Of a stretch of 38,110 nt of DNA, positions 13,152-32,806 are shown piece after piece. Each line of letters opens with the position of its first letter. Position 1 is the first letter of the stretch. The DNA is taken from NCBI GenBank assembly GCA_001438605.1, contig LIDE01000033.1:1-38110 (forward strand), read 5' to 3'. The DNA comes from SAR92 bacterium BACL16 MAG-120619-bin48 (GTDB lineage Bacteria; Pseudomonadota; Gammaproteobacteria; Pseudomonadales; Porticoccaceae). The notes under the pieces are model-generated. The model saw only the letters and a program-made list of their open reading frames with translations. It ran no database searches and was not told the origin of the DNA. Position numbers and translations under genes: made by a program.

Positions 13152-14345
13152 TTAAGGCGTTTTGACAGCCTCCAGGAGACGTTTGATTCCTTCTAGCGCG
13201 CTCATTCTGGGGCCTTCCGCAAGGATATTCCAGCCAGTGAATACAATGACCATATCCAACTCAGGAATAACAATGGGGTACTGTCCACCGAAGCCGAAGC
13301 CAGCGAAAGCGACGCGTTCTTTTCCTTTGTATTGATAATGTACAAGCCACCATTTATAGCCATATTCTAAACTACGATCCTCTGTAACTGACACAAATGA
13401 TGCTATCGATGCATCCACCCAGGCTTCGGGTACAACTTGCTTGTCTTCCCATTTTCCTCGTTTCAAAAATAAGTAGGCAATCTTCGCAATGTCACGAGAG
13501 GAAATGAACAGTCCCTCTTGGGCATCAGTGAGACCATATGGGGTGCGTTTCCAATAAAAGTGGTCTATGCCTAGCGGCTGGAACAAATGCCTAACGGCAT
13601 ACTCTTCGAGATCCATGCCGGTCGCTTGATTGAATACGTGCGCCAATATTAATGTGGCGCCGCTGTTGTACTGAAAAGACTCACCTGGCTCTGATGACAT
13701 CGGTCGATTCATTGTGAACTTAACCCAATCTGGATCCAATGCCATTATAGAAAATGTGTTTCTAGGATCGTTATAGGGATAATCTTCATTCCATTGGAGA
13801 CCGGTGGTCATGGTGAGTAGGTGTCGAATGGTCATACGCCGTTTTTTGTCATCAATGTTATCGACAGTACTGGGTTTAAAGAACGTAAGAACCGGTGTCT
13901 CAAGATCTGGAAATTCACCTCGTCCAACAGCAATACCGATAACCGCTGAAACCACGCTCTTGGTGACAGATTGCATCGAGTGCAGATTTCCCTTTTTGAC
14001 GTAAGGATGCCACCAAGGATTGAAGTAGTTATAAGGACCGGTTGGGTCGCGCACAACTAGCGGGCCTGGTGTAGACGCTTCCTTTTGGTAAATGCTGCCG
14101 TAATCGCGACCATAATACCGTTCATAGGCTAGCTTGCCACTGCGAATAACCAACATAGAGTCAACATAGCCGTATTTTCCCTGCTCTATGTCTGTATCAA
14201 GTGCGGACAGCACTTTAGAATCAAGGCCTACCGATGGAGGCGTTGTTAAAGTCCATTCTTTCGTGGGCCATTCACTTTGGGCTAATAGGGGTGAGGCCCA
14301 GAAAATAAAACTAACAATTAAAAAAGTTAGATATTTATTCATCAT
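13152..14345 (-). CDS. Exported serine hydrolase, beta-lactamase class C/EstB-like fold
   Basis: The 397-residue protein has a Sec signal peptide (FLIVSFIFWASPLLAQ) and the penicillin-binding/beta-lactamase fold. The nucleophile motif S-x-x-K is Ser126-Lys129 (MQSVTKSVVS), and the Tyr motif is Tyr226-Asn (FQYNSGATLIL). The C-terminal segment FAGFGFGGQYPIVIPELDMV stands where the K/H-T-G motif usually lies. Members include esterases, D-aminopeptidases and beta-lactamases. In this setting a carbohydrate-ester esterase is an attractive guess but is not shown by sequence. It is the last gene of the minus-strand polysaccharide cluster, 135 bases after the isomerase-like gene. Start by ATG at 14345, with GGAGA upstream. 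Confidence 0.85.
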   Translation of the reverse strand: MMNKYLTFLIVSFIFWASPLLAQSEWPTKEWTLTTPPSVGLDSKVLSALDTDIEQGKYGYVDSMLVIRSGKLAYERYYGRDYGSIYQKEASTPGPLVVRDPTGPYNYFNPWWHPYVKKGNLHSMQSVTKSVVSAVIGIAVGRGEFPDLETPVLTFFKPSTVDNIDDKKRRMTIRHLLTMTTGLQWNEDYPYNDPRNTFSIMALDPDWVKFTMNRPMSSEPGESFQYNSGATLILAHVFNQATGMDLEEYAVRHLFQPLGIDHFYWKRTPYGLTDAQEGLFISSRDIAKIAYLFLKRGKWEDKQVVPEAWVDASIASFVSVTEDRSLEYGYKWWLVHYQYKGKERVAFAGFGFGGQYPIVIPELDMVIVFTGWNILAEGPRMSALEGIKRLLEAVKTP

Positions 14346-14380
14346 AAAAGTCTCCTATATTAATTACCTAATCATAACCA

Positions 14381-14449
14381 AATACCCCATCCCGTCAAAT
14401 CTGGGCTAGATCGAGGTAGGAGACATGCAGATTATTGTCGACTCTAGGG
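14381..14449. repeat. Dispersed repeat, copy A
   Basis: AATACCCCAT (14381-14390), GTCAAATC-GGGCTAG (14393-14409) and ATGCAGATTATTGTCGACTC (14425-14444) recur elsewhere in the window in the same or opposite orientation (15575-15617 and 32872-32965). It sits in the gap upstream of the serine hydrolase gene. Confidence 0.6.
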
Positions 14450-14480
14450 GAGTAAACTAGTTAGCGCACTCAACGCCAGC

Positions 14481-15389
14481 TTAACGTTGCTTGTCGCTAT
14501 TGACCGATGTTTTCGGCGATTTAAGCATCAGTGATTGGAGGCCGTTTAAATTTCTCGCTAGGGTTACTTGAACGTCTTCATTTTTGATGTGTCCTAATAT
14601 ACCAAACGGACCTTGATAATTTTTTCTTAACAGATAATCAATCATGTCTTTTTCAAGATCGCCTTCTCCTATCGGAACAATTTTAGGTCCATTTTGTTTC
14701 ATTCCGTTCAGATTTACAGACCATAGATACGGAATGATGTCGTCGATGATTTTTGAATAATTCTCTAACTGTGTGTGCCCGTGGTGGAAATTGTAGACAA
14801 TGCCGATATCGTATTGCGGTAATTTTGTAATGATTTCCAGTTGGTTTTCAGGTTCGCCAAACCATCCGCCATGATTGTATAGGGCAATTTTACAGCCCAG
14901 ATTTTTAGCTCTTTTTGCCAGTGCGGCGACCATCTCACTCGCTTTGGTCAACGACTCTACATGGGCTAAACCATTGAAAACCTCAGCATCGATACCCACC
15001 CAAATTTGCGTCAAAAGCTCTGTAGATCTGAGGCTGTCGAAGACCTTCTCGTTGGCGGACTTAAGCTTTAATAACGAGTCTTTGTTAGTGATATAGAGCC
15101 ATACCGCACTAATTTTTATGCCTGCGGCTTTAGCGATCATTAACTCTTTGGCCATCAAATTTACATGCTCTTGGCGACCTCCGAAAGCATACTGGCTAAA
15201 GCCTAATTCTTTGATCATTGCGACTCTTTGCGAGGGTGTTCGCTCGCGAGCATCAAACGCAACGATTGACCATGGGATGATATTTTGAGTATAAAATGGG
15301 GATTGGTCGGTTGAGCTATAGCTCCCAGAAGAACACCACAGGGCAGCGTTCAAGACGAGGATTATTACTGTATTAGAGGGTGATTTCAC
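14481..15389 (-). CDS. Exported sugar isomerase/epimerase-like TIM-barrel protein
   Basis: The 302-residue protein belongs to the xylose-isomerase-like TIM-barrel superfamily (AP endonuclease 2 fold). It has a hydrophobic N-terminus (NTVIILVLNAALWCSSGSYS) consistent with export; the CS could be a lipobox. Barrel motifs include FDARERTPSQRVAMIKELGF, ALYNHGGWFGEPENQLEII, YDIGIVYNFHHGHTQLENY (metal-ligand-type His) and VPIGEGDLEKDMIDYLLRK. Similar exported proteins accompany sulfatases and glycosidases in marine bacteria, and their substrates are mostly untested. It is co-oriented with the MFS permease gene upstream (234-base gap holding repeat copy B) and the serine hydrolase gene downstream. 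Confidence 0.8.
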   Translation of the reverse strand: MKSPSNTVIILVLNAALWCSSGSYSSTDQSPFYTQNIIPWSIVAFDARERTPSQRVAMIKELGFSQYAFGGRQEHVNLMAKELMIAKAAGIKISAVWLYITNKDSLLKLKSANEKVFDSLRSTELLTQIWVGIDAEVFNGLAHVESLTKASEMVAALAKRAKNLGCKIALYNHGGWFGEPENQLEIITKLPQYDIGIVYNFHHGHTQLENYSKIIDDIIPYLWSVNLNGMKQNGPKIVPIGEGDLEKDMIDYLLRKNYQGPFGILGHIKNEDVQVTLARNLNGLQSLMLKSPKTSVNSDKQR

Positions 15390-15617: not shown

Positions 15618-15623
15618 GTCTTT

Positions 15624-17057
15624 TTAGCCCTGATCCTTTGCCGCCCAGAGCGCTTCCATCTCTTCGAGTGTCTTACCCTTGGTCTCAGGGACGAGCTTCC
15701 AGACAAAAATCATCGCGACCACACAGAAAGAGGCAAAGATAAAGTATGGCAGCGCACCGTTAAAACCCTCCTGATTAAAGGTACTTTGGTTTACTAGAGG
15801 GAAGCTATTGGCAACCAGGGCATTAAATAGCCACTGTGCCGCAACGGCGATCGACATAGCGACACTGCGCACATTATTTGGGAACATCTCCGACAACATC
15901 ACCCACACCACTGGCCCCATGGACATGGCGAATGAGGCGATAAAGACCAATACAGCGATCAGGGAAACAATCCCCATCTGCTGGGTATAAATAGTCAGAC
16001 CCAGCACCGTTAAACCTGCACACATACCTATACTTCCGGCAATAAACAGCGGCTTGCGGCCCCAGCTATCGACTTTGTAAATAGCGACAAAGGTAAAGAT
16101 AAGGTTGACCGCACCCAACCAGAGCTGCTGCTTAAGGGAATCTTCTGGGCCATAGCCCAGAGCATTGCTAAAAATTTCTGCACCATAATAAAGAATCGCG
16201 TTAATACCGGTGACCTGCTGGAATATCGACAACATAATGCCAAGAAATAAAGCAAAGCCAATGCCTTTGCCAAACAGCATTGCAATATTGGGGGCTGGGC
16301 TATTGGTCAGTGATGCCTCTATATCAGCAAACTCAGAGGCCGCCTCCTGGTCGCTCGAGGTTATCTGAGCCAGCACCGTTTTGGCCTCTTCAGTGCGGCC
16401 CTGTAAGATCAACCAACGGGGGCTGTGAGGCACAGTAAAAAGCAGCGCCAAGAAAGCCAGTGCTGGCAAGAGCTCAGACCAGAGCATAATGCGCCAGCCC
16501 CTATTAACATTGTGCTCATGAAGCTGCGCAAGCACTTCTGGGGTCATATTCTGCGTGTCGCCACCGCCAATAAAATATGTCGCTAAAAACACCACAAAGA
16601 AACCAATAACCACGGCCAACTGATAGTAAGAAACCATGCGACCACGGTATTTCGGTGGCGCCATTTCAGCAATATACATAGGCGCCGCCAATGAGGCCAT
16701 GCCCACGGCAAGACCGCCAATAATACGATAGATCGCCAGCTCATTAAGGGTTGCTGCGAGACCAGAACCCCAGGCCGAGATAGCAAACAGAGCGGCCGCG
16801 AGGATCAGCGTATACTTTCTGCTTATCCGCTTAGTGAGATAACCACCCGCCAACGCACCCACTAGACAACCGTACAGCGCACTGCTGACTGCCCAACCCT
16901 GCTCGGCAGCTGAAAGATTAAAATATTTGGTGAAATAAAGCTGACTACCCCCTATCACACCGGTGTCATATCCGAACAATAAACCACCTAATGCAGCGAC
17001 AATGGTGATTTGTAAAATACTGAGTTTATTAGTGCTGGAGCTTGTGCCGATAGTCAT
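15624..17057 (-). CDS. Sugar-porter-family MFS symporter
   Basis: This 477-residue, 12-helix permease is of the MFS sugar porter family (XylE/GalP/GLUT type). Diagnostic motifs: GGLLFGYDTGVIGGSQLYF in helix 1, RGRMVSYYQLAVVIGFF with the upstream PMYIAEMAPPKYRGR, FQQVTGINAILYYGAEIF in helix 7, DSWGRKPLFIAG after helix 8, WVMLSEMFPNNVR and the terminal PETKGKTLEEME. It would import a monosaccharide with protons across the inner membrane. Xylose or galactose is typical, and xylose fits the GH10 enzyme in this cluster. GAGGGAATC precedes the ATG. It follows the FGE gene by 111 bases in the same direction. Confidence 0.92.
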   Translation of the reverse strand: MTIGTSSSTNKLSILQITIVAALGGLLFGYDTGVIGGSQLYFTKYFNLSAAEQGWAVSSALYGCLVGALAGGYLTKRISRKYTLILAAALFAISAWGSGLAATLNELAIYRIIGGLAVGMASLAAPMYIAEMAPPKYRGRMVSYYQLAVVIGFFVVFLATYFIGGGDTQNMTPEVLAQLHEHNVNRGWRIMLWSELLPALAFLALLFTVPHSPRWLILQGRTEEAKTVLAQITSSDQEAASEFADIEASLTNSPAPNIAMLFGKGIGFALFLGIMLSIFQQVTGINAILYYGAEIFSNALGYGPEDSLKQQLWLGAVNLIFTFVAIYKVDSWGRKPLFIAGSIGMCAGLTVLGLTIYTQQMGIVSLIAVLVFIASFAMSMGPVVWVMLSEMFPNNVRSVAMSIAVAAQWLFNALVANSFPLVNQSTFNQEGFNGALPYFIFASFCVVAMIFVWKLVPETKGKTLEEMEALWAAKDQG

Positions 17058-17168: not shown

Positions 17169-18134
17169 TCACTTAGCTGTTCGAAAACCAATATGAGACG
17201 AGCCGAGCGTAACATCTTGAGCCTGTCGAGCGGCAGGACGAAAGCGTTGACAGTAGTTATCTGAACACAAAAATGAGCCTCCTTTAAGCGTTTTTACGAC
17301 AATGCCAGGCTGCTGAGGATCATATCCCTGATCACCGTAATTTCTTTTATGATCTGGCCCGTATGCTGTGTCAGTCCATTCCCATACATTTCCGGTCATA
17401 TCGTATAAGCCATAGCCATTTTCGGTAAAGCACCCAACCGGCGAGCTGCCTACAAATCCATCCTCTTTAAGATTTGTATAAGGGAAATGCCCTTGCCAAG
17501 TGTTGGCTTTCGCCTCACCCTGATGAGGAGCCTCCTGACCCCATGAGTAGGTCGCACCCTCTAAACCTCCTCTGGATGCGTATTCCCACTCCGCCTCTGT
17601 GGGCAAGCGTCGACCCATCCATGTAGCATAGGCCTCTGCATCGGCATGGATAAGATGCACAACCGGAAAGGAGCCTTTTCCTTCGATAAAGCTCTCGGGG
17701 CCAAGAGGATGCTGCCAATTTGCACCGGGTACAAATTGCCACCAGCTAGCAGTCGCAGTTACTTTTTCTGGATCTGGCGATACAAACACCATGGAGCCAG
17801 GAACCCGAAGCTCTGGCGGAACATTAGGGAATTCTTTTTTGGACAGACCCCGCTCTGCCGCAGTGACATATCCCGTGGCCTCAACAAAGGCGCTAAACTG
17901 CCTGTTGGTGACCTCAGTAAGATCAATATTGAAGTCTGCAACGACCCTGATTCCAGCGGGTCTTTCATCGGCATAGTAGCGGTTATCACCAAACGTGAAT
18001 TGCCCCCCGATAATATCCACAGTATTACCAATGTCGGCCTCAGCTAAACATGTCAGAGGCTTCGTTCTATCTTCACAAGCAACCAGAGACACTGCGAGTA
18101 ACAGGACGAGAGAAATATTATTACCTGAAGGCAT
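17169..18134 (-). CDS. Formylglycine-generating enzyme (sulfatase maturase), lipoprotein
   Basis: The 321-residue protein of the FGE-sulfatase/SUMF1 family oxidises a cysteine in sulfatases to C-alpha-formylglycine. Family motifs are GGQFTFGDNRYYADERPA, DLTEVTNRQFSAFVEATGYV, RRLPTEAEWEYASRGG, GNVWEWTDTAYG and GSSHIGFRTAK. The two active-site cysteines of true FGEs are present at Cys290 and Cys295 (GGSFLCSDNYCQRFRPAAR), so this is not merely an SUMF1-like domain. The N-terminus is a lipoprotein signal with lipobox LVAC (about residue 20), placing it at the periplasmic membrane face, which is notable because characterised actinobacterial FGEs are cytosolic. GGGGAGG lies before the ATG. It is the obvious activator of the three sulfatases nearby. 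Confidence 0.93.
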   Translation of the reverse strand: MPSGNNISLVLLLAVSLVACEDRTKPLTCLAEADIGNTVDIIGGQFTFGDNRYYADERPAGIRVVADFNIDLTEVTNRQFSAFVEATGYVTAAERGLSKKEFPNVPPELRVPGSMVFVSPDPEKVTATASWWQFVPGANWQHPLGPESFIEGKGSFPVVHLIHADAEAYATWMGRRLPTEAEWEYASRGGLEGATYSWGQEAPHQGEAKANTWQGHFPYTNLKEDGFVGSSPVGCFTENGYGLYDMTGNVWEWTDTAYGPDHKRNYGDQGYDPQQPGIVVKTLKGGSFLCSDNYCQRFRPAARQAQDVTLGSSHIGFRTAK

Positions 18135-18483: not shown

Positions 18484-19968
18484 CTATCGGCTTTCTCTCA
18501 AAATAATCAGTTGCTCATGAAGATCCGCAACAAGCGATTTATAGTCTTTATGTTCAGCCAGATTAACAGTCTCTTTGGGGTCATTTAGGTGATCAAACAT
18601 CATTCGCGCTGTTACTTGGCCCTGTTGATCAAACCATTCTGTCATGGCATAGCGATCGGTCTTAATCACATCTGCTGCATGCCAACGTGGAAACACAGCT
18701 ACTTTGCCTGGAGCATTAACATCTAACAACTGACTTACGAAGCTATCGCCCTGCAACTGCGGAAGTTTAGGCTTACCCAATAACTCGAGTACGGTGGGGA
18801 ATATATCGACAAATTCGACCAAACCCTCGGCAGTACCGACGCCTGGATTCCTGCTCGGCTTAGTTTCACTGCTTTTAGATGAAGTACCCTCTCGCAGCAG
18901 CCCCATAGCAGATTTCTCTGTCAGTTTTGTCGGCAATTTAACGATTAGCGGTGTTCTCGTTGCCACATCAAAGGGCGAGTGTTTAACCCATAAACCATGT
19001 TCGCCGAGGCTAAAGCCATGGTCACCAGCGAGGATAACAATGGTGTTGTCATCGAGGTCAAGCTGTTTTAATTTGGCCAGTAATTTACCCACCTGAGCAT
19101 CCGAGTAACTGACGCTGGCAAGATATCCATGAACCAGTTTCTTTGCCATAGCGTCGGGAACCGGGTGCGGTGCTTTGGGGATACCCTCAAATTTGCGCAA
19201 CTCACCCCAACTATGGATGGCCTGGCGAGGCGCTCCCACCGGCATAAGTGGATTACTCGCAAGATCGATATCATCTTCCCGGTAGAGGTCCCAGTAGCGT
19301 AAAGGCACAGTAAACGGCAGGTGAGGCTTTAAAAAACCCACCGCCATGAAGAAAGGCTGATCACGCTGACTGGCAGACTCAAGAGACGTGATGGCCTGAT
19401 CAGCAATCATGCCATCAAAATAATGATTATCTGGAACATCTGTGGCTTCGTAAGCCGGACCAACGCGACCCTTGAGAAAACTGGCAATGTTTTCCGCGCT
19501 CTGGTAATTGCGGTGCCCAATCCGCTTAATCTTGGGCTTAGGGTTCCAAGGCGGCGTACTCCAGCCAGCCTTAGAATCGTCAGGAAAATGCAATATCTTA
19601 CCGATACTTTGGCTGTAGTAACCCTGTTTTTTGAGGTAGCCAAACAAGGTTTCAGCGCCTTTGGCATCCTCATCAATACGCGCTTGATAACCGACAAAGC
19701 GGGTTTCTGTCGGTCTGATACCCGACATCATACTGGCTCTAGAAGCGCCACAGACCGGCACATTGGCATAGGCATTTGCAAACAGCACCCCCTCACTGGC
19801 CAAACTATCTATGTTCGGGGATTTAACGGCTGTGCTGCCGTAAGCACCCAGTTCTGGGCGCAGGTCATCGATCATAATAAACAGGATGTTGGCAGGCTTC
19901 ACGTCACTGGCAATAGCGTTAAATGCAATTGACAGGCTGCACATAAAGATTAGCAATAGATTTTTCAT
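18484..19968 (-). CDS. Family S1 sulfatase, iduronate-2-sulfatase-like, exported
   Basis: This protein of about 494 residues hydrolyses sulfate esters. It has a signal peptide (LLLIFMCSLSIAFNAIAS), the metal-site start ANILFIMIDDLRPELGAYGS, the modification motif C-x-A-S-R at Cys73 (VCGASRASMMSG), the second metal motif VILAGDHGFSLGEHGLW, and a C-terminal part typical of iduronate-2-sulfatase-like members (FPRWHAADVIKTDRYAMTEW). The modification site has Ala instead of the usual Pro, a known alternative. The start at 19968 is preferred over a GTG at 19983 because GGAAGG lies 8 bases before it. The gene lies 34 bases behind the other sulfatase, so they are co-transcribed, and activation by the neighbouring FGE is expected. 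Confidence 0.92.
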   Translation of the reverse strand: MKNLLLIFMCSLSIAFNAIASDVKPANILFIMIDDLRPELGAYGSTAVKSPNIDSLASEGVLFANAYANVPVCGASRASMMSGIRPTETRFVGYQARIDEDAKGAETLFGYLKKQGYYSQSIGKILHFPDDSKAGWSTPPWNPKPKIKRIGHRNYQSAENIASFLKGRVGPAYEATDVPDNHYFDGMIADQAITSLESASQRDQPFFMAVGFLKPHLPFTVPLRYWDLYREDDIDLASNPLMPVGAPRQAIHSWGELRKFEGIPKAPHPVPDAMAKKLVHGYLASVSYSDAQVGKLLAKLKQLDLDDNTIVILAGDHGFSLGEHGLWVKHSPFDVATRTPLIVKLPTKLTEKSAMGLLREGTSSKSSETKPSRNPGVGTAEGLVEFVDIFPTVLELLGKPKLPQLQGDSFVSQLLDVNAPGKVAVFPRWHAADVIKTDRYAMTEWFDQQGQVTARMMFDHLNDPKETVNLAEHKDYKSLVADLHEQLIILRESR

Positions 19969-20002
19969 AAAGCGGCCTTCCACTTTCGACTTTAATGGTT
20001 TG

Positions 20003-21715
20003 CTAGTGTGCTGCAGGTTTGGCTTTAGAGAGCCCTGCCCTAACCTTATCGGGTTTCATAAAGTCACGCAGATCGCGCTCGCTACCATTACGTAACCATT
20101 GGTCTGGGAACTCGGCCGCTTTTGACCGCTCCCCCTCACGGAACACTGCACCATGACTAAATTTCTCGGTGTATGGGACACTTAAGCCATCGCGAGAATC
20201 CCCAAGACGGGCAAACAACTTACCACGCAGATCGGCGACTACCGCCAAATACTCAGGGTCGTGGATCAGGTTGTGCATTTCTTTAGGGTCAGTGCGCATA
20301 TCATAGAGCTCCTCTGTATCCCAAAGACCATGATAGGTAATAAATTTATAGTCGTCTGTGCGCAGCGCAAAGGTGGTTGGTGTGCTCGGATAATTAAATT
20401 CCCAGTAGTATTCATAGAGCAGATCATCGCGCCATTCGCTTTCTGATTCGCCCCGTGCCAGAGAATACAGACTCTCTCCTTCAAATTGCTCCGGAGATTC
20501 AAGCCCAGCAATATCCAGTATGGTTGGCGCAATATCGATATTGGCGGCAATCTCTTTAACCACATGATTAGCCTTCAAGCCATCACCCCAGGCTAAAAGC
20601 GGTACCCGCATGGACTCCTCATAGGCATTACGCTTATCAATCAGACCGTGCTCACCAAACATAAAGCCATTGTCACCCATCAGCATCACAATGGTGTCGT
20701 CGGCATGGCCATTATCTTCGAGCCACTTAAAAAGACGACCAAGACTCTCGTCTACCGCAGACAACGCTCGGTGGTAGCGCATTTTGTACGCCTGAACATC
20801 CAGTGAACTGTGATAGGGAAAATCAACGCCGTGCCAGCTATTGCGCTGATTCTTAACCCACATGGGCTTACCCTCGTAATTTTCAGGGGTATCAGCTTGG
20901 CTATCAGGCACCGGAATGGTTCTGTCAGCATACTGCTGGCTGTGACGTTGCGCTGGTGCAAAATTTGCGTGTACCGCCTTGTGAGAAAGGTACATAAAGA
21001 ACGGTTCTTCGCTATCGCGACTGTCCAGCCAATCCACTGCGTAATCGGTTAACTCATCAGTGATATAACCTTTTTGTTTAACGATATCACCATTGATATT
21101 GAGCATGCTCTGCTCACCATTGGGTTTGATTGGATAGTAATGGCCCTGACCAGCAAAGCTCACCCAGTGATCAAAGCCTGGCTGAGGATCATCGAGCCTG
21201 CGTCCGGCTGGCGCCAATTCACCCATGTGCCACTTGCCAAAAAAGGCGGTGTTATAGCCGGCCTTTTGCAAGTACTCGGGGAAAAAAATCGTGCCATCGC
21301 GAGGTGGCTTGTTATTGTCGACAACGCCATGGTTATGCATATATTGGCCGGTGAGGATCGAAGCCCGACTCGGAGAGCAAAGTGCCGTGGTGACAAAGGC
21401 ATTCTTAAAGTGGACGCCTTCGGCAGCCATGCGATCCATATTCGGCGTTTCTATAATTGGATTCATAAAGCCGAGTTCATCGTAGCGCTGATCATCAGTG
21501 AGCACATAGATCACGTTCTTTGGCTTGCTGACCCTTGACTGGCCTCCAAAGGATCGATACAACCAATCCATTGAGAAATCAGATTGGTACCTTTTTTGTT
21601 CTGCGCGTTGATTGCTTTCCCCTACATCGGTACAACCAACTAGTATCGAAATTAGCATAACTACACTGGCTCTACCTAACAGCCCATTTGTCCAATTGCG
21701 TTTCAAATCATTCAT
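20003..21715 (-). CDS. Family S1 sulfatase, lipoprotein
   Basis: This 570-residue sulfatase has a lipoprotein signal (VVMLISILVGC) and about 45 residues of linker before the core. The core opens with PKNVIYVLTDDQRYDELGFM, carries the canonical modification motif CSPSR at Cys113 (TTALCSPSRASILTGQY), and has GMGELAP-type and MLMGDNGFMFGEHGLIDK metal motifs. The C-terminal DELYDMRTDPKEMHNLIHDPE-like stretch (EELYDMRTDPKEMHNLIHDP) is the usual S1 end. The sequence resembles S1 members acting on algal polysaccharides or heparan-type sugars, but the subfamily cannot be fixed by eye. It follows the GH3 gene by 42 bases and precedes the second sulfatase by 34, so it belongs to the GH10-GH3-sulfatase operon. 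Confidence 0.92.
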   Translation of the reverse strand: MNDLKRNWTNGLLGRASVVMLISILVGCTDVGESNQRAEQKRYQSDFSMDWLYRSFGGQSRVSKPKNVIYVLTDDQRYDELGFMNPIIETPNMDRMAAEGVHFKNAFVTTALCSPSRASILTGQYMHNHGVVDNNKPPRDGTIFFPEYLQKAGYNTAFFGKWHMGELAPAGRRLDDPQPGFDHWVSFAGQGHYYPIKPNGEQSMLNINGDIVKQKGYITDELTDYAVDWLDSRDSEEPFFMYLSHKAVHANFAPAQRHSQQYADRTIPVPDSQADTPENYEGKPMWVKNQRNSWHGVDFPYHSSLDVQAYKMRYHRALSAVDESLGRLFKWLEDNGHADDTIVMLMGDNGFMFGEHGLIDKRNAYEESMRVPLLAWGDGLKANHVVKEIAANIDIAPTILDIAGLESPEQFEGESLYSLARGESESEWRDDLLYEYYWEFNYPSTPTTFALRTDDYKFITYHGLWDTEELYDMRTDPKEMHNLIHDPEYLAVVADLRGKLFARLGDSRDGLSVPYTEKFSHGAVFREGERSKAAEFPDQWLRNGSERDLRDFMKPDKVRAGLSKAKPAAH

Positions 21716-24073: not shown

Positions 24074-24156
24074 TATCGGTGTAAGAGGCCTTGTTGTTAT
24101 AGTGGAAATAATAAAAGTTGTTGGGAATAGACTGTTTTTTACTGAATGGCTATTTT

Positions 24157-25458
24157 TCATGACAGACTAATCTGCGCATTAACAGTGTCTGATTTTAATG
24201 GCACTGCAAAGGTACCGCCGTTAGTCGCGCTCACCTGCATATGGTAGAGCCCCTTATAGCCAGTAAAATTAACCTCTCCTCGACTATCGGTGATTAATTC
24301 AACCTCGGTAGACCAGTGTTTGTTGACTAGGTCATGCCACACCTGGCCATTGGGTTTCAATCGCAAGTTGCGATCAACCAATGCTGCATCGGGCTTTGGT
24401 ACGCTGTTTTTAGCGTACTCAAAGGGCGTCCAGGTAAGCAGTCCGGTCATCTGCGGATGACTGAAGATAGCAGTCATAAAGTCTTCGGTATAACGTGCCT
24501 GAAACTCTAAATCCGGAGTTTCAAAATCAAACTCGGTAACCTGTAACTCGGTATTTAGCGTGGCGAAATCATTCATAATAGAGAGCAATTCTTGCGGCGC
24601 TGTAGGTGCAAATCCCTTGGGGATATGTGCTTGAAACCCAATCCCTTGAATAGCCGCGCCCTGCTTCAAAAGGCCCTGTATATAATTAAAATAAAAGGTT
24701 CTGTGACGCACTGAATTCTTAGTTAGCACTCCGTAGTCGTTGATATAGCGTTTAACCTCGGGCCGAATCTGCTGCACCTGTTTGAACCAATCAACAGCGA
24801 CCTCGGGCCCGAGAATATCCATAAACTCGTGACTACTAAAAGGCTCATTGAGCACATCCCATTCAGTTAGGGGATGGCCATATTGGCTGACCATTTTGTC
24901 AATATGATTATTAAGAAGCTTGCGTAACTGCACTTTATTGCCCGAATATCTGGTATGTTCTGCTGCAGCTCGCCTGAAACCGGGCCAGATTAAACAGTGC
25001 CCGCGAACCGGGATGCTGCGCTCTGCACACCATTCCATAAAAGGTTCGATGTACTGGCTATTATTGTCATGGTGCTTCCACTTAAACGCATTCTCAGGGG
25101 TCAGTTTGTGGAACAGCAAATCGCAGTACTCTAAATGACCCTGCCTTAATTCTTGAGAGTATGGGTTGCCATAGAGGCGCCTTAAGCGCGGTGCCGCACC
25201 AAAACCAAACTCATGGCGATAGAGATTTGCTGTAACCGGAAGATTTGCCAGGGGCATGCCCGCGGCGTCTGTTATCTTGACATTGAAGCGGCCTTTGCGA
25301 AGAGTCTCAATGCGCTGCTTAGCCTCTTTTCGCCAGCCGGCACTATCTTCCATACCTGCATAAGACGTCGCTGCAGTAGAGAAGTTTTTCACCTGGTTGG
25401 CGAACCCGAAAGACGGCGTGGCAGCAGCCAAAGCTGATATAAAGCGTCGCCTGTTCAC
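24157..25458 (-). CDS. GH10 endo-xylanase with Tat signal
   Basis: The 433-residue GH10 protein starts with a twin-arginine signal (MNRRRFISALAAATPSFGFA), unusual in this cluster, where the other enzymes use Sec or lipoprotein signals. A short beta-sandwich-like stretch (about 55-90; FNVKITDAAGMPLANLPVTA) precedes the barrel. The acid/base Glu205 is in TEWDVLNEPFSSHEF and the nucleophile Glu309 in LQVTEFDFETP; RGHCLIWPGF and GLLTWTPFEYAKNS are further GH10 hallmarks. A C-terminal domain of about 60 residues follows. GH10 enzymes cut beta-1,4-xylan, with some members active on beta-1,3-xylan, so this gene defines the likely polymer. It is the first enzyme gene after the TonB receptor. Confidence 0.9.
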   Translation of the reverse strand: MNRRRFISALAAATPSFGFANQVKNFSTAATSYAGMEDSAGWRKEAKQRIETLRKGRFNVKITDAAGMPLANLPVTANLYRHEFGFGAAPRLRRLYGNPYSQELRQGHLEYCDLLFHKLTPENAFKWKHHDNNSQYIEPFMEWCAERSIPVRGHCLIWPGFRRAAAEHTRYSGNKVQLRKLLNNHIDKMVSQYGHPLTEWDVLNEPFSSHEFMDILGPEVAVDWFKQVQQIRPEVKRYINDYGVLTKNSVRHRTFYFNYIQGLLKQGAAIQGIGFQAHIPKGFAPTAPQELLSIMNDFATLNTELQVTEFDFETPDLEFQARYTEDFMTAIFSHPQMTGLLTWTPFEYAKNSVPKPDAALVDRNLRLKPNGQVWHDLVNKHWSTEVELITDSRGEVNFTGYKGLYHMQVSATNGGTFAVPLKSDTVNAQISLS

Positions 25459-25534
25459 AATCCAATTACCACCCGTATTCAGTTAACGTGAAAGCAGCTC
25501 AAAAGTAACCTTACCTGCGTACTTAAAGACTATT

Positions 25535-25563: not shown

Positions 25564-25576
25564 TTTAGTCGGAGTT

Positions 25577-28330
25577 CTAGAACTTGTAACGTAGACCTAA
25601 TGCATAGCGGCGGCCAAATTCACGATAGGAAATAATCCGTGACTCGTCACCCGCAAAGGTGACTGGCTTTTCGTTGGTCAGGTTAATGGCTTCTGCAGTT
25701 AACGTGAGACCGGTATCACCCACCTGATAGCTCATGCTCGCATCAACCTGAGAGTAGGCTTTGTGATAGATTGGCAGACCACCAAGACTTGAGGTAAAGA
25801 GTAAGAAGTCATCTCGATCCGTGTACGATATACGACCTGAAAAGTCCTCTTTTTCATAGAACAGCACCAGGTTCATGCTCGATTCTGAAAGCCCTTCCAA
25901 TGGCAGCGCGTTGCCAAATGGATCATTCTTAATTGTAGAGCTATCAATCATGGTGTAGTTAAAAATCGTACCTAAGCCATCAAAAGGAGCCGGAAGTTGG
26001 GTAAAATTCTGCTGGTAGGATAACTCAAGACCCTTAATAGTAGCGCCTTCACCGTTAGACGGTGCCGTGACCAAATACTCTACCGCATCACCGTTGTCGT
26101 CTGTTTCAAACCCGGGAACAACTTCGCTGAACTGAGTTGATGAAACATAGGAGCTGACGTCTTTGTAGAATGCAGCGGTTGACAGTAGTCCACCTTTGTT
26201 GAAATACCACTCCAAAGACAGATCGAACTGATCTGCAAGAAAAGGATCAAGATCGGGATTACCACGAGTTGCAGTCTGTGCACCCTGATTGACATTATAG
26301 CCTAAGGTCAACTGCTGGAAGCTAGGACGAGACATAACCTTTGCATAACCGCCACGCAGCAAGAGATCATCGTCAAGCACATAGACGACGTTTAGACTCG
26401 GCAAGACTTCAGAATAGCTGCGCTTGTCATTCAGTGGAATCAAAGCAGCGCCATCGTAGGTATTACTGTTACCGTCCTGATCGGTACTGACGTAGCGCAG
26501 ACCAAAATTGCCGCGCAATTTTTCAGTCTCGAAAGTTGCCATGGCATAGGCTGCGGTAATTTCTTCGCTAACATCCCAGTTGCTAATACCGTCCTCCTTG
26601 GCTCGAATCACTGGGGTGCCTAATTGGCCGTCAGCATCGTAGGAATAATCTTCTAAAATCATGCTTGCCGATGGAAAGAACCAAGATGAAGGCATGCCGC
26701 CAGTAACGGAAAAGTTATCAACCGGAAAGGTACTATCGCCAATATAATCTGCCAAGGTACAGCTGTGAGCATCATCGCCACAGGTCGACCCGTTTCTAGA
26801 GTTAACCGAATCCACCGCCTTGTATTGATCCTTACTACGATCACGGTATTTAGCGCCGAACTTTACGCTGGTGATCCAGCTATCATTAATCGTGCGTTCG
26901 AAATCTAACTGGGCGTACTCTTCTTCATCAGTGTTTTGTTGTACTGCGCGAGACAGATTCTGCCACTCCAGGTCGGAGGGTGCAGACACCGCCTCACCGC
27001 CAGCCAAGGTCGCAGTCAGAGTGGAGAATTGAACGCCGCGAGTATCATAGGAAACACTGCTTCCCTTTGGCCCAAAGGTTGCAAATAAAGCTGGATCCTG
27101 TTTGCCCTCACCATCGGAAGCGCCAACGCGTGCCGACACCAACCAATCTTCAGAGGTCCAATCTACAGACAGATTAACGGCTTCGGTAGAATAGTTATAT
27201 TCACGATCAAAGTTAGCGACAAAATAGCGCTGATGGAAGGATTTGTCACTGGTACTGTTGGTCACAGCAACAAAATTGTCGCCGTCGAGAACGGCACTCT
27301 CAATCAGGGTATTGCCGACACCACCTGGGGCATCAGTAAATCGATAAGCACTGTTGCTGGCGTGCTCAAAACGGGTTAAGTCAGTGGTCAAATAATCTAA
27401 CTTAACGTCGACGTTGTCATTGGGTCTGTACTGAAAAACAACGTTGAGACCTGAGCGTTCACGCTCTTCAAGACGAATATTTTGCCTTATGTCCTTGGGC
27501 ATATAGCCATAGGCAATGCCATCAACCGGTGCGGTCAACTGCGCAGGAGAACCGGCATCGCTTATCTTACCTGTAGCGGCGTCAAAACCCACATAGAGAT
27601 AGCCAAAGGATTCCACACTGTCACGGCGAAAAGGCTCTTCGGAATTATTGTAACTAACTAGAACGCCTAACTCACGACCCTGAGAGTCGACACTAGAGTC
27701 GGTAAATAGCAAAGAATAATTTTCACCCTCATCGTCGCGCAACTTATTAAACGACTGCTTGAGATTGACTACCGCGGTGCGATTTTTAAAGTTCAATGGC
27801 GAACGCGTCTTGAGGTTAACCGTTCCGCCCAGAGAACCTTCATCCTGGCTGGCCGAGGGTGTTTTAAACACTTCAAGGCTTTCCACTAGCTCTGGCGAAA
27901 TAGTGTTGTAGTTAAAGCTTCGTTCTCCACCGGAAACCGAGGTCGTTGAAATGGTTTGGCCGTTTACTGTGGCTCGATTCAATGCCGGTGGCGTGCCGCG
28001 GACACTAACTTCACTTCCCTCACCCACACCGTCGTTGTCTCCTGCACTGACGTTAGTTCCGCGACTAATCTGTACGCCCGTAACCCGCTGTAGTGACTCG
28101 GCGACATTGTGGTCGGGAAACTTACCCAGATCCTCTGATGTTACGACCTCAACAAACTCACTTGAGTTACGTTTGCGGTCAATTGATTTTTCAAGACTGG
28201 CGCGGACACCAGTCACTACGACCTCCTCTATCTCAGAGTCCTGAGCGAAGGACTGATGAGAAAATCCAGACGCAGCTATTACCGCACATAGCAGCCTTAA
28301 TTTAAATGAGCCATTGGCTAAATTCAACAT
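25577..28330 (-). CDS. TonB-dependent outer-membrane receptor of the polysaccharide cluster
   Basis: This 917-residue protein has a signal peptide (LLCAVIAASGFSHQSFAQ), TonB box IEEVVVTGVR, plug domain (SEDLGKFPDHNVAESLQRVTGVQISR; EVSVRGTPPALNRATVNGQT; LGGTVNLKTRSP) and a barrel ending FGRRYALGLRYKF. The motif ASLEKSIDRKRNSSEFVEVV following the TonB box is typical of the subclass that imports oligosaccharides in marine and plant-associated gammaproteobacteria. It is therefore expected to take up sulfated xylo-oligosaccharides or similar products. It heads the minus-strand gene set. A 12-base-arm palindrome lies about 135 bases upstream of its start, and the response regulator gene lies just upstream in the same direction. 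Confidence 0.93.
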   Translation of the reverse strand: MLNLANGSFKLRLLCAVIAASGFSHQSFAQDSEIEEVVVTGVRASLEKSIDRKRNSSEFVEVVTSEDLGKFPDHNVAESLQRVTGVQISRGTNVSAGDNDGVGEGSEVSVRGTPPALNRATVNGQTISTTSVSGGERSFNYNTISPELVESLEVFKTPSASQDEGSLGGTVNLKTRSPLNFKNRTAVVNLKQSFNKLRDDEGENYSLLFTDSSVDSQGRELGVLVSYNNSEEPFRRDSVESFGYLYVGFDAATGKISDAGSPAQLTAPVDGIAYGYMPKDIRQNIRLEERERSGLNVVFQYRPNDNVDVKLDYLTTDLTRFEHASNSAYRFTDAPGGVGNTLIESAVLDGDNFVAVTNSTSDKSFHQRYFVANFDREYNYSTEAVNLSVDWTSEDWLVSARVGASDGEGKQDPALFATFGPKGSSVSYDTRGVQFSTLTATLAGGEAVSAPSDLEWQNLSRAVQQNTDEEEYAQLDFERTINDSWITSVKFGAKYRDRSKDQYKAVDSVNSRNGSTCGDDAHSCTLADYIGDSTFPVDNFSVTGGMPSSWFFPSASMILEDYSYDADGQLGTPVIRAKEDGISNWDVSEEITAAYAMATFETEKLRGNFGLRYVSTDQDGNSNTYDGAALIPLNDKRSYSEVLPSLNVVYVLDDDLLLRGGYAKVMSRPSFQQLTLGYNVNQGAQTATRGNPDLDPFLADQFDLSLEWYFNKGGLLSTAAFYKDVSSYVSSTQFSEVVPGFETDDNGDAVEYLVTAPSNGEGATIKGLELSYQQNFTQLPAPFDGLGTIFNYTMIDSSTIKNDPFGNALPLEGLSESSMNLVLFYEKEDFSGRISYTDRDDFLLFTSSLGGLPIYHKAYSQVDASMSYQVGDTGLTLTAEAINLTNEKPVTFAGDESRIISYREFGRRYALGLRYKF

Positions 28331-28464
28331 TGCAAAATCCCCGATAATTATTAAAATTTATATTTTTATAATTGCTACGATTTCGCTGACTATAATGGCT
28401 CTTCGAGTTATCTAAAATAATCAGGAATTGCTGAAATTTAGAGTCAGATAATGGAATTTTTTAC

Positions 28465-28482
28465 TGTAGGGGTTTTCCTACA
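28465..28482. promoter_or_regulatory. Palindrome upstream of the TonB receptor
   Basis: TGTAGG (28465-28470) and CCTACA (28477-28482) form an inverted repeat with a 6-base spacer, 135-150 bases before the receptor start and just downstream of the response regulator stop. LuxR/NarL-type regulators bind such short dyads, so it is a candidate operator. No T-run suits it as terminator in the regulator's direction. Confidence 0.4.
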
Positions 28483-28506
28483 AAGGCGATAAATAAATTG
28501 AGATTC

Positions 28507-29151
28507 TTATAAAAGTAAACCTGATTTATTGGCATAGAGGATTAGCTCTGCATTGGTTGAAAACCCCATTTTTTGCATTAGCCTTGACCTATGAGTAGCG
28601 ACAGTTTTAGCACTCACCTGCAATTTTTCAGCAATATCTTTTGCTCTTTTACCTGAAGCCAGTTCAAGAAATATTTGATACTCCCGGTCTGAAAGAGACT
28701 CATATAGAGACAAGTCATCTGCATTAGAAAAGCTACGACTCATAGTATTAGCCAAAAGTCCGCCCACAATTTCATTGATATAGCGCCCACCTGCAGCAGC
28801 AGTTTTCACCGCCTTTATAATCTCTGTCTCTTCAGCATCTTTCGAGATATAGCCTGCTGCGCCAGCCTGAATCAACCTAACAGCGTATTGAGACTCAGGG
28901 TAACTGCTCAGAATCAGCACTGGCAGATGGGGCTTTTCTGACTTAATTTGTTTTAGAACATCGACACCGCTGCGGCCAGGCAGACGGATATCCAGTACGA
29001 CTAGGTCCCAGTCTTGCTTTCGAACCTGCTGCATAGCCTCGATGGCGTCATTGGCCTCAGCCAAGACTACCAAGTCAAGATTTTCAATGAGCATCTGTTT
29101 TAGCCCATTTCTAACTACAGCATGATCTTCAACAAGAAGAATGGATGACAT
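28507..29151 (-). CDS. LuxR/NarL-family response regulator
   Basis: The 214-residue protein has a receiver domain (1-120) with acidic pocket EDH at 8-10, phospho-acceptor Asp54 (LVVLDIRLPGRSG), a conserved Ser at about 82 and Lys in SKDAEE, followed by a LuxR-type helix-turn-helix at about 150-207 (LSDREYQIFLELASGKRAKD; VSAKTVATHRSRLMQKMGF). It is divergent from the sensor kinase gene, separated by 181 bases that hold a perfect palindrome. It is the evident partner of that kinase and the probable regulator of the polysaccharide genes around it. The receptor gene lies directly downstream in the same orientation (176-base gap). Confidence 0.93.
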   Translation of the reverse strand: MSSILLVEDHAVVRNGLKQMLIENLDLVVLAEANDAIEAMQQVRKQDWDLVVLDIRLPGRSGVDVLKQIKSEKPHLPVLILSSYPESQYAVRLIQAGAAGYISKDAEETEIIKAVKTAAAGGRYINEIVGGLLANTMSRSFSNADDLSLYESLSDREYQIFLELASGKRAKDIAEKLQVSAKTVATHRSRLMQKMGFSTNAELILYANKSGLLL

Positions 29152-29180
29152 TATTTCTCCTAGAAAGGGTGATTAAAGAT

Positions 29181-29201
29181 GTTACTTTCTAGTAAAGTAA
29201 C
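29181..29201. promoter_or_regulatory. Perfect palindrome in the divergent regulator/kinase promoter region
   Basis: GTTACTTT (29181-29188) and AAAGTAAC (29194-29201) are exact inverted repeats with a 5-base spacer, 30 bases upstream of the regulator start and 130 upstream of the kinase start. The position and symmetry fit an operator for autoregulation of both genes. Confidence 0.5.
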
Positions 29202-29332
29202 AGATACTTACCAAAATTAGAAACCAGAAATATTTGGTTTTATAAAATATTTACTAAAGCCTTTAACTGAATTTAACAAAGCTGTTATTTTTTATTGCTT
29301 TTTTTAACCTTGAATCTTAAGGCCCGACTGTA

Positions 29333-31087
29333 ATGATGATTCTTAATTCCGACTGTAATTTCGAGAAGAAACCTAATTTAAAAAAATCCATCCATAGAAT
29401 TAATCGGTCCCTAATGTCGGCTTCTCTCAACCTTATTTCTGCATGCGTTACTCTGTTTATAACTGTAACCATGGCCAACGCCGACGTCCAGATAAATCAA
29501 GTTGGCAGTCCTGAAAAACGAGTACTGCAATCATCACTCACCGAGCCAGAGCTTAACTGGCTTCGCAAACACAAAACGATCAGGCACGGCATTGCAAGCA
29601 ACCAGATGCCCTTCGAATATGTAGATGATAATGGCCATTATCGCGGGTTGACCTCAGACTATATCGCCATTGTCAGCGAACAGTTGGGCATTAACTTTGA
29701 GCTATTCGTGTTCTCCGACCTAAACGGACTGTCAAAGGGAATCCAAAAAAACCAAGTTGATCTAGCCAGTTATCTGCCACCGCCACGAGGAAAGCTAAGC
29801 TATAGCGAGTCAGTTATTGAAATGCCCATCGCCCTCTTTGGGCGACAAGACTCTGCGCTAATTGTTGGCATTGAGTCAATTCGGGATGAGCGCGTAGTTA
29901 TTGAAAAGCCCTCCAAAGCGGAGCAAATACTCTCTGAATTTTATCCGCAGATTGCGGTTAGCTATGTTGATACGCCAGCCGAAGGTATTCAAGCGGTGCT
30001 CGCTGGCAAAGCCGACATATTTATTCACAATGTTTTTTCCGTCGAATATTACACCCGCAAACTGGGGTTGCCGCCGTTAAAAGTAGTGTCCAACACCCCT
30101 TATACCTTTGATATTGCATTTGCGGTAACTGAGGAACTCAGACCATTTATCCCGATTGTGCAAAAAGTCCTCTCAGGTCTGAGCAAACGAGAAAGACAGT
30201 TAATTTTCGATAAATGGGTCAATATTGAGATAACAAGGAAACTCGACCTGAAAAAAACAGGGCTCTGGGCCAGTGCTGTCCTAATGTTTGTCTTACTGGT
30301 ATTTCTGGCCATTCTGCGGTGGAATAAAATTCTTAAGGAGAAAGTTGCCTATAGAACCCGAGAGCTCGAGCTATCGAGCAAAAACTTACGCAGCTTGGCG
30401 CGCCATCTGGATAAGGTGCGAGAGGAGGAAAAGGCGAAGTTAGCCCGTGAGATTCATGATGAGCTAGGCCATACCCTAATTTCTCTGACCATGGCGGTGA
30501 GGCGACTGAAAAGCACCGCAATGAAAAGCTTCAAGCAGCCTGAATTGAACAACTCTTCAAGCCAAAGCGCTGAGTTAGACAATCAACTTGATGACATCAA
30601 AGCCTTGCTACTTAAGGCGTCAAATACCTCTAGGTCCATTATGTCAGATCTGCGGCCTAGTGTTTTAGAGGATCTTGGACTAATTGCAGCCATAGAGTGG
30701 CTAGCTCATGAATTTGAAATTCACCATCAAAAACTATGCATTGTTGGCGGCACCCAACTGGCAGACACTATTCCATCCACCGTTGCTATAGCTGTATTTC
30801 GAATCGTTCAAGAGTCGCTGACCAATATCGCAAAACACGCTAAGGCCAACAAAGTTCAAATAAAGATCAGCAGTGACAATGGTCTCCTCAAAGTAAAGAT
30901 AATTGATGATGGTATTGGCCTACAGGCCGGCTGGGACCAAAAAGAAGGTTCATTCGGTTTTCAGGGAATGCGAGAAAGAGCAATGAGTTTCAATGGCGAG
31001 ATCAGCGTCGTCAATGGCAAAAACTCCGGGGTAGCTTTAATGCTTCAAATCCCCTTTAAAAAACACGACGTTGAATCTAAATACTAA
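29333..31087 (+). CDS. Sensor histidine kinase with periplasmic binding-protein domain
   Basis: The 584-residue kinase has an N-terminal membrane/signal segment (about 27-48), then a family-3 solute-binding-protein domain in the periplasm (about 75-300; IRHGIASNQMPFEYVDDNGHYRGLTSDYIA, GIQAVLAGKADIFIHN), a transmembrane helix (about 311-331), a HisKA_3 domain with phospho-accepting His375 in REIHDELGHTLIS, and a HATPase_c domain (ESLTNIAKHAKANKV; IDDGIGL; GSFGFQGMRERA). The domain order resembles BvgS/EvgS sensors but without PAS, receiver or Hpt modules. It should autophosphorylate and pass phosphate to the divergently encoded LuxR-type regulator. Its ligand is unknown; a breakdown product of the cluster's polysaccharide is a reasonable guess. 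Confidence 0.92.
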   Translation: MMILNSDCNFEKKPNLKKSIHRINRSLMSASLNLISACVTLFITVTMANADVQINQVGSPEKRVLQSSLTEPELNWLRKHKTIRHGIASNQMPFEYVDDNGHYRGLTSDYIAIVSEQLGINFELFVFSDLNGLSKGIQKNQVDLASYLPPPRGKLSYSESVIEMPIALFGRQDSALIVGIESIRDERVVIEKPSKAEQILSEFYPQIAVSYVDTPAEGIQAVLAGKADIFIHNVFSVEYYTRKLGLPPLKVVSNTPYTFDIAFAVTEELRPFIPIVQKVLSGLSKRERQLIFDKWVNIEITRKLDLKKTGLWASAVLMFVLLVFLAILRWNKILKEKVAYRTRELELSSKNLRSLARHLDKVREEEKAKLAREIHDELGHTLISLTMAVRRLKSTAMKSFKQPELNNSSSQSAELDNQLDDIKALLLKASNTSRSIMSDLRPSVLEDLGLIAAIEWLAHEFEIHHQKLCIVGGTQLADTIPSTVAIAVFRIVQESLTNIAKHAKANKVQIKISSDNGLLKVKIIDDGIGLQAGWDQKEGSFGFQGMRERAMSFNGEISVVNGKNSGVALMLQIPFKKHDVESKY

Positions 31088-31162
31088 GTTAGTAAAGGCA
31101 AAAACCGCTTGAGTACTTGACTATTTAAAGGGGAAATAAATGATTCTCCAAGGGACCTCTAA

Positions 31163-32806
31163 ATGTTCATAAGATCAACCATAGTCAGTCTTTGCCTAGT
31201 GCTGACGCTACTCACTACCAGTGTAATGGCACAGCCGCGACCGAATATTCTATTGATCATGGCTGAGGACATGAGCGCTAGAGTAGGCGCATTTGGCGAT
31301 AATGTCGCTGTCACGCCCAATCTCGACCGTCTCGCCAGCACCGGCATTCGATATCCTAATACTTTTACCACGGCCGGCGTCTGCGCGCCGAGCCGTGCTG
31401 CACATATACTCGCGGTTCACCAGATTTCGGTGGGCGCACAGCACATGCGCACCCAATCGTTTAAAGACTCTGCCTACAGATCAGTACCGCCAGCGCATAT
31501 CAAAGCCTATCCAGAATTATTACGTCACGAAGGCTATTACACCTTTACCAGCTCTAAGCTCGACTATCAGTTTAGTAACGTATCTGCCGGGTCAGGACCT
31601 TTTAGCATCTGGGACTACGAAGGTTCCCAGCCTACTTGGCAGGGTCGTGCAGAAAGTCAGCCATTTTTTGGTTTCGTGACCCTGACACAAACCCATGAGC
31701 AGCAGATTTTCCCTAATATAGTGACGTTAAATAATGCCTCAGAAACTCACTCCCAGGTAGTTAATCCCGATCAGGTTTTAGTACCGCCCTACTATCCCGA
31801 TCATCCGGATATCCGAGCCGACATTGCTCAGCACTACAACAATATTTTTGTCATGGATCAGATGGTTGGCAAATTACTGCGTCAGCTTGAAGACGATGGC
31901 TTGGCCGAGACCACCATTGTTATCTGGACCACCGACCATGGCGATGGTCTGCCCCGAGCCAAACGTGAAATCTATGACAGTGGCATCAAGGTGCCATTAA
32001 TTGTCCACTGGCCAACACGCTTTAAACCTGAGGGTTTGATTCCTGGCAGTAATGATAAAAGGCTGGTGAGCTTTGTCGATATAGGGCCAAGTGTTTTGAC
32101 CATGGCGGGGATTCCGGTGCCAGACTACATGCCTGGGAGTGCTCAGCTAGTGCCGGATGTCAGTCCAGAAAGAGACTATATTTATGCCGCCAAAGACCGG
32201 ATAGACGGTTTTAACTTTCGCGAGCGCGCCGTGCGCGATGGCCAGTTTAAATACATTAAGAATCTGCTTCCAAACATGCCAGGTGCGCAGCATATTACAT
32301 ACCGCGATCGACTGGCTACTATGCAGACTCTCTGGCAGCACTTATCTGCAGGCAAGCTAAACGCTGCGCAACGCTTTTGGTTCGAGCCACGCCCAGCAGA
32401 AGAGCTTTACGATATAGTCGCCGACCCCCATGAAATCAATAATATAGCCGATTCTGCCGAGCAGATTGACACTCTCGCTCGTATGAGGACTGCACTAATA
32501 AACTGGCGAGGCGCGATTGCCGACTACAGTGAGACAACTGAATTAGCGATGGCTAAGGACTTTTGGCCAGATGGCGAGCAACCCGTCACTCAAGTACCTC
32601 AGATCTCAATTAATAAAGAAGGAACGGCGAGCATAGTACCTTCGGCAGCCGATGATTCAGTTGGATATCGTATAAATGGCGGCGTCTGGAAGCTTTACAG
32701 CAAACCTCTGTCACTTCCCAAAAAGGCTCTTTTAGAGGCCAAGTCAGTTCGGTATGGATGGGCAGAGAGTCCATTGACCCGCGCTTCGCACACCGCTGGT
32801 GATTAA
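31163..32806 (+). CDS. Family S1 sulfatase with C-terminal accessory domain, exported
   Basis: The 547-residue sulfatase has a signal peptide (IVSLCLVLTLLTTSVMAQ), opening motif RPNILLIMAEDMSARVGAFG, modification motif CAPSR at Cys74 (TTAGVCAPSRAAHI), metal motif VIWTTDHGDGLPRAKREIYD and the C-terminal ELYDIVADPHEINNIAD. The last 60 residues (SAADDSVGYRINGGVWKLYS, ALLEAKSVRYGWAES) look like the chitobiase C-terminal-type domain seen in some S1 subfamilies, including N-sulfoglucosamine-type enzymes. AAGGGA precedes the ATG. It follows the kinase gene by 75 bases, so it may be co-transcribed with it and thus lie outside the main minus-strand operon. It presumably depends on the FGE encoded at 17.2-18.1 kb. 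Confidence 0.92.
   Translation: MFIRSTIVSLCLVLTLLTTSVMAQPRPNILLIMAEDMSARVGAFGDNVAVTPNLDRLASTGIRYPNTFTTAGVCAPSRAAHILAVHQISVGAQHMRTQSFKDSAYRSVPPAHIKAYPELLRHEGYYTFTSSKLDYQFSNVSAGSGPFSIWDYEGSQPTWQGRAESQPFFGFVTLTQTHEQQIFPNIVTLNNASETHSQVVNPDQVLVPPYYPDHPDIRADIAQHYNNIFVMDQMVGKLLRQLEDDGLAETTIVIWTTDHGDGLPRAKREIYDSGIKVPLIVHWPTRFKPEGLIPGSNDKRLVSFVDIGPSVLTMAGIPVPDYMPGSAQLVPDVSPERDYIYAAKDRIDGFNFRERAVRDGQFKYIKNLLPNMPGAQHITYRDRLATMQTLWQHLSAGKLNAAQRFWFEPRPAEELYDIVADPHEINNIADSAEQIDTLARMRTALINWRGAIADYSETTELAMAKDFWPDGEQPVTQVPQISINKEGTASIVPSAADDSVGYRINGGVWKLYSKPLSLPKKALLEAKSVRYGWAESPLTRASHTAGD

Follow-up and report, generated by a model that had tools for sequence, protein, structure and literature searches.

A GH10 and sulfatase gene cluster in a SAR92 genome

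The genome of SAR92 bacterium BACL16 MAG-120619-bin48 (assembly GCA_001438605.1, termed here G000; 2.53 Mb in 111 contigs, 99.6% complete) carries a gene cluster that joins a glycoside hydrolase of family GH10 to three sulfatases, and that an earlier note, made from the sequence alone, had assigned to the breakdown of a sulfated xylan. We analyzed the whole of contig 33 (LIDE01000033.1; 38,110 nucleotides, hereafter the window) by scanning 25 open reading frames (ORFs) with Pfam, with NCBIfam models also used, and every component listed in the note was confirmed: GH10, GH3, a TonB-dependent receptor, a sugar porter, three sulfatases, a formylglycine-generating enzyme (FGE) as their maturase, and a two-component system. 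The locus was compared with those of four same-genus carriers (G012, taken as marine gamma proteobacterium HTCC2207; G037; G043; and G052) and of SAR92 AG-916-D20 (G002), which belongs to a sister genus. Its genes and its one candidate regulatory site are arranged as follows:

15624..17057, minus strand: XylE-like sugar porter (PF00083, 393 bits); next to the core in G000 and G037 alone
17169..18134, minus strand: FGE (PF03781, 238 bits), with a lipoprotein-like start by eye; next to the core in G000 and G037 alone
18484..19983, minus strand: S1 sulfatase A, S1_7-like (PF00884, 156 bits); nearest solved structure 6HHM
20003..21715, minus strand: S1 sulfatase B (PF00884, 216 bits), with a lipobox by eye; S1_11 nearest, weakly separated from S1_25
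21758..24160, minus strand: GH3 beta-glycosidase of the xylosidase/glucosidase type (PF00933/PF01915/PF14310)
24157..25458, minus strand: GH10 of a divergent clade, 433 residues (PF00331, 132 bits); catalytic pair E205 and E309
25577..28330, minus strand: TonB-dependent receptor of the TonB-Xanth-Caul type (705 bits); first gene of the operon
28465..28482, no strand: palindrome TGTAGG-N6-CCTACA, putative response-regulator site ahead of the receptor gene; no other exact copy in G000
28507..29151, minus strand: LuxR/NarL-type response regulator (Pfam/NCBIfam)
29333..31087, plus strand: sensor histidine kinase (SBP_bac_3 sensor and HisKA_3)
31163..32806, plus strand: S1 sulfatase C, S1_8-like (PF00884, 126 bits); nearest S1_8A and S1_8B of a lambda-carrageenan locus

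The core of the locus (18484-32806) comprises an operon that runs receptor-GH10-GH3-sulfatase B-sulfatase A, together with the response regulator, the histidine kinase and sulfatase C. Within the operon, 118 bases separate the receptor from GH10, GH10 and GH3 overlap by 4 bases, and gaps of 42 and 19 bases precede sulfatases B and A. As the note had held, these components occur together: G000 encodes a single GH10 and eight sulfatases, three of which lie <10 kb from it (P ~3e-5 under random placement, for a 10 kb reach picked post hoc), and this clustering is not due to chance.

Conservation of the core in relatives

The window GH10 is 88% identical to that of HTCC2207, 88% and 92% identical to those of two metagenome-assembled genomes, and 53% identical to that of AG-916-D20. 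A receptor orthologue is present in five of the 50 genomes of the genus, the same five that have the GH10. G012, G037 and G052 all show the order sulfatase C-kinase / response regulator-receptor-GH10-GH3-sulfatase B-sulfatase A, which is partly kept in G043, whose contig reaches only from within the response regulator into GH10 (contigs L010, L011, L012 and L013 were treated as those of G052, G012, G043 and G002, respectively, and counted once). The flanks behave differently: of the three same-genus relatives whose flanks could be read, G037 has FGE and porter next to the core and G012 and G052 do not, and the genes at 13152-15389 (beta-lactamase-like and AP_endonuc_2-like) have close counterparts in none of the compared relatives. 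Weak beta-lactamase-like matches lie ~11 kb from the core in G012 and ~13 kb from it in G052 (33% identity), and ~17 kb away in G002 (26%). By this comparison, we place the conserved core at 18484-32806; the coordinates 13152..32806 proposed in the note hold for the window itself but extend beyond what is conserved.

In the sister genus, a block of sulfatase A-sulfatase B-GH3-GH10 sits with an aldose epimerase, XylB (520 bits; cut-off 380), XylA (664 bits; cut-off 533), a canonical GH10 (325 bits) and three further sulfatases, one of which is the counterpart of sulfatase C (58%). Sulfatase B is the best conserved of the three between genera (73%, vs 53% and 58% for the other two). Between two sulfatases of this sister locus lies a 419-residue protein (L054:13802-15061) that matched no Pfam or NCBIfam model at the thresholds applied.

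Sulfatases resembling those of the window accompany the GH10 clade in all six readable contexts, the window included (G000, G012, G037, G052, G002 and G248, the last on a 6.7 kb contig; G043, whose contig ends inside GH10, is omitted), vs none of seven around distant GH10s of this order (G098, G105, G107, G110, two in G167, and G313), as judged by similarity to window proteins over stretches of 14-20 kb. Distant GH10s that were left uncounted are those of G101, G102, G106 and others of that genus, in loci of ~4 kb with no sulfatase match, and that of G388.

A divergent GH10

PF00331 is the sole domain of the GH10 protein, which has no fused sulfatase domain and whose start is, by eye, twin-arginine-like. 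Its catalytic glutamates, set in N-E and T-E-x-D motifs, are invariant in 12 aligned GH10s and correspond to E182 and E280 of 7D89, the positions mutated in that structure; the predicted fold is that of a GH10 xylanase. All six GH10s of the clade carry W-P-x-F-[RK]-R, vs the canonical W-H-x-Q after the conserved tryptophan. The clade might be specialised for sulfated xylan, hydrolyzing the backbone with its sulfate still on, aided by basic residues, with the ordinary GH10 of the sister genus cutting bare stretches; if true, this would give GH10 a new specificity and Gammaproteobacteria a cascade for a planktonic sulfated xylan. We regard such specialisation as doubtful: W-P, one arginine and the loss of a canonical S-W motif are common to distant GH10s without sulfatases nearby, which leaves F-[RK]-R as the sole mark of the clade.

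Sulfatases and their activation

The activation motif C-x-[PA]-S-R is intact in all three window sulfatases (CGASR, CSPSR and CAPSR). Subfamily likeness, judged among solved structures only, places sulfatase A nearest 6hhm (256 bits) and the iduronate-2-sulfatases 5fql (242) and 6ioz (241), which we take to be S1_7 members, with the next match at 122 bits. Sulfatase C is nearest 9bb9 (240 bits), 9bbd (225) and 9bba (167), followed by 4mhx (111; presumably an S1_8 member), with the next at 83. Sulfatase B matches 7p24 (282 bits) and 5g2v (268), both assumed here to belong to S1_11, and 7lha (226; S1_11, an exo-L-galactose-6-sulfatase), vs 218 bits to 6hr5 (an S1_25 rhamnose-3-sulfatase); because these matches grade smoothly from 282 to 218 bits, its subfamily may be S1_11 or S1_25. 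According to passages of a review, 6HHM is P18_S1_7, a 2-sulfo-D-xylose sulfatase, and the ulvan enzyme P32_S1_8 has the same specificity (PMC9096561), although this review and another (PMC8360166) disagree, in the passages concerned, on which of the ulvan xylose sulfatases (S1_7 or S1_8) is the endo and which the exo enzyme.

The sulfatases read in G012, G052, G002 and G248 also keep the activation motif, one of those in G002 (CSPTR) as judged by eye only.

The nearest solved structures of the window FGE are themselves formylglycine-generating enzymes (222 bits to 6muj and 5nxl), and both cysteines of its C-x4-C stretch, presumably the paired active-site cysteines, align with these structures. 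Among ten genomes searched, an FGE-type PF03781 match occurs only in G000 and G037, in which the two proteins are 85% identical. The other PF03781 protein, read in G000, G012 and G002, has 676-690 residues and is without the cysteine motif; the matches in G043, G052, G013, G017 and G036 are like this type in length and score (judged by these alone), and G248 has none. The anaerobic maturase model TIGR03942 had no match at E 0.001 in any of the ten. The maturase, which the note had counted as part of the set, does adjoin the core in G000 but is absent beside it in G012 and G052, and we rejected it as a core member.

A two-component system with a single palindrome

Aligning the intergenic space between regulator and receptor from four genomes yielded the palindrome TGTAGG-N6-CCTACA. 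It occurs once in the window (0.08 expected with one mismatch allowed) and once per genome in all five carriers, each time at the locus (0.15 expected per genome from base composition), figures to be read knowing that the intergenic regions are related DNA, that the pattern was chosen from them, and that the genomes are 79-99.6% complete. None of three same-genus non-carriers tested has the palindrome, nor does G002, in whose 40 kb stretch no relatives of the response regulator or kinase were found. Uniqueness and position are the stronger points for a putative binding site. Because the palindrome stands once per genome, before the receptor gene, in every carrier, the two-component system looks dedicated to the locus, and the suggestion that the cluster has a regulatory system of its own gains support.

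Substrate of the locus

We consider it likely, on the basis of gene content and similarity, that this is a polysaccharide utilization locus (PUL)-like system for a sulfated xylan or xylose-rich sulfated glycan, the source of which would probably be algae. That the substrate is sulfated is indicated by three sulfatases with intact activation motifs and an FGE; xylose as its sugar is supported by XylA, XylB and a canonical GH10 in the sister-genus locus, and by the likeness of sulfatases A and C to S1_7 and S1_8, subfamilies for which activity on 2-sulfo-xylose has been published.

From the genes, their motifs and conserved order, the unique palindrome and the predicted GH10 fold, we infer the following sequence of steps and their regulation. 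The kinase would sense a periplasmic ligand and phosphorylate the response regulator, which would bind the single palindrome and switch on the receptor-GH10-GH3-sulfatase B-sulfatase A operon. The TonB receptor would import sulfated oligosaccharides; the locus FGE would activate sulfatases C and A, which would remove 2-O-sulfate from xylose residues, and sulfatase B would remove another sulfate ester. GH10 would cut the backbone, GH3 release monomers, and the XylE-like porter carry xylose into the cell (its score to the XylE model, 480 bits, is under the 608 cut-off). HTCC2207, with the same core in its genome, would be a small system for tests, having three sulfatases and a single receptor, GH10, GH3 and candidate promoter site.

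Several observations weigh against xylose as the target. The xylose isomerase model TIGR02630 has no match at E 0.001 in G000 or in the other four carriers of the genus, and G000 has no obvious xylonate dehydratase, because its two ILVD_EDD enzymes look, by eye, like IlvD and Edd (G043 has three such enzymes). The Pfam scan of 25 window ORFs found no GH43, GH67 or GH115, and the GH3, a member of a polyspecific family, scores under every curated NCBIfam cut-off. Sulfatase B is nearest S1_11, whose characterised members are 6-O-sulfatases, and xylopyranose, having no O6, cannot bear a 6-sulfate. Nor does S1_8 membership prove xylose, because members of that subfamily also strip 2-sulfate from galactose, as part of one report describes (PMC12549532). 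The sulfated-xylan proposal of the note gains support from the sister-locus XylA and XylB and from the S1_7 and S1_8 similarities, and is weakened by the missing XylA of G000 and the S1_11-like sulfatase B. The best model for a G000 kinase of the FGGY family, truncated where its contig ends, is XylB (212 bits vs a cut-off of 380), and a C-terminal piece lies at the start of another G000 contig.

Sulfatase B is also where other substrates come into consideration. If it were a true S1_11 enzyme, the substrate would contain a 6-sulfated hexose, and the target might then mix xylose with such a hexose (e.g., a sulfated xylogalactan- or xyloglucan-like polymer), with sulfatase B as the hexose-6-sulfatase. 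Its nearest structures (7p24, 5g2v and other S1_11-like chains, 7lha among them) and its standing as the best conserved sulfatase between genera agree with this, but the core holds no galactosidase or galactanase family and the matches run without a break into S1_25, and we judge a mixed glycan unlikely. The S1_25 match to 6HR5 points instead toward an ulvan-like or other xylose/rhamnose sulfated heteroglycan, from which the locus would trim Xyl2S oligosaccharides made by other organisms, and S1_7 and S1_8 are indeed the ulvan xylose-sulfatase subfamilies. Sulfatase B nevertheless scores higher with S1_11 than with S1_25, and no GH78, GH88, GH105 or polysaccharide lyase was present among the 25 window ORFs and eight proteins scanned in the sister locus, the rest of the genome lying outside this search. 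GH10 is not known as an ulvan enzyme, and we hold an ulvan-like target to be improbable.

Plain xylan, with the sulfatases serving an unrelated purpose, is very improbable: GH10, GH3 and the XylE-like porter would suffice for plain xylo-oligosaccharides, but sulfatases B and A follow GH3 on the same strand at the short distances given above, and sulfatases accompany this GH10 clade in every context read and distant GH10s in none. A sulfated xylan or xylose-rich sulfated glycan remains the reading that we prefer.

Genomic neighborhood

The locus stands beside a folD-like gene (identified by eye) in two genera (L047, L051 and L053, i.e., G012, G052 and G002) and elsewhere in G000 and G037; within the genus, it has apparently changed place. 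Just past sulfatase C, a fragment at 33049-33405 matches an integrase model (PRK09692, 32 bits) at its C-terminal end, and transposase-like rve ORFs lie at 553-1158 and 8078-8878; these features hint at mobility. The window also holds a second GH3 with Big_9 and CBM6 domains (9001-11712), which has no separate counterpart in the compared loci, and a TonB receptor followed by a phytase-like gene (1713-5442), possibly an uptake pair for phytate or phosphate. Rfam and tRNA scans of the window gave no matches.

Comparison with known systems

Sulfated xylans are a predicted food for bloom bacteria, a substrate assigned in the passages concerned from gene content and expression, not from enzyme tests. 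Published examples, read in excerpt (PMC6794258, PMC6298971, PMC8371827), remove the argument from rarity in the earlier note, which had taken three sulfatases beside a GH10 to be unusual, and we have rejected that view. In marine Bacteroidetes, one "sulfated xylan" pattern consists of a sulfatase-GH10 fusion, a GH3 and two sulfatases, and a second recurring one of GH30, three sulfatases, PL9, GH10 and GH43_1 (Krueger et al. 2019, PMC6794258). Kappelmann (PMC6298971) gives four PULs for beta-xylose that include sulfatases, and PUL136 of Formosa Hel3_A1_48 is among the predicted sulfated-xylan PULs. For Gammaproteobacteria, passages of Francis et al. 2021 (PMC8371827) report xylan clusters in three Alteromonadaceae, where sulfatases are lacking, and in a single species out of three of UBA7434, where they are present, and name none for 22 SAR92 species. 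A literature search limited to open-licence full texts found, in the portions it returned, no SAR92 sulfated-xylan locus, and the excerpts of PMC9122927, PMC8857213 and PMC11573768 hold nothing on such a gene set.

The window locus resembles the UBA7434 cluster, as excerpted, in combining xylanase-family genes with sulfatases in a gammaproteobacterium. With the Formosa agariphila ulvan PUL (Reisky 2019, via parts of PMC8360166 and PMC9096561) it has in common S1_7- and S1_8-like enzymes, which there act on 2-sulfo-xylose; that PUL, however, has ulvan lyases and GH78/GH105, none of which is among the ORFs scanned here, whereas the window has GH10. The closest solved relatives of sulfatase C, the 2-O-sulfohydrolases S1_8A and S1_8B, come from the lambda-carrageenan locus of Pseudoalteromonas distincta U2A, which, in the part of PMC12549532 concerned, has a galactan substrate and GH150/GH110/GH2 in place of GH10/GH3. 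The likeness extends to the PULs predicted to target sulfated xylan in Formosa, Polaribacter and Aurantivirga of the North Sea, which, as partly described, share GH10, GH3, several sulfatases, TonB-type uptake and the same inferred substrate. Set against the Bacteroidetes PULs by description, not sequence, in which one pattern has a sulfatase-GH10 fusion and uptake relies on SusC/D pairs, the window has three separate sulfatases, its own two-component system, and a single TonB-Xanth-Caul receptor as uptake gene without a SusC/SusD pair, no SusD family being found among the scanned window ORFs. This kind of system has therefore already been predicted in other marine bacteria, but its parts differ here: GH10 is unfused, SusD was not found, and the locus has its own two-component system.

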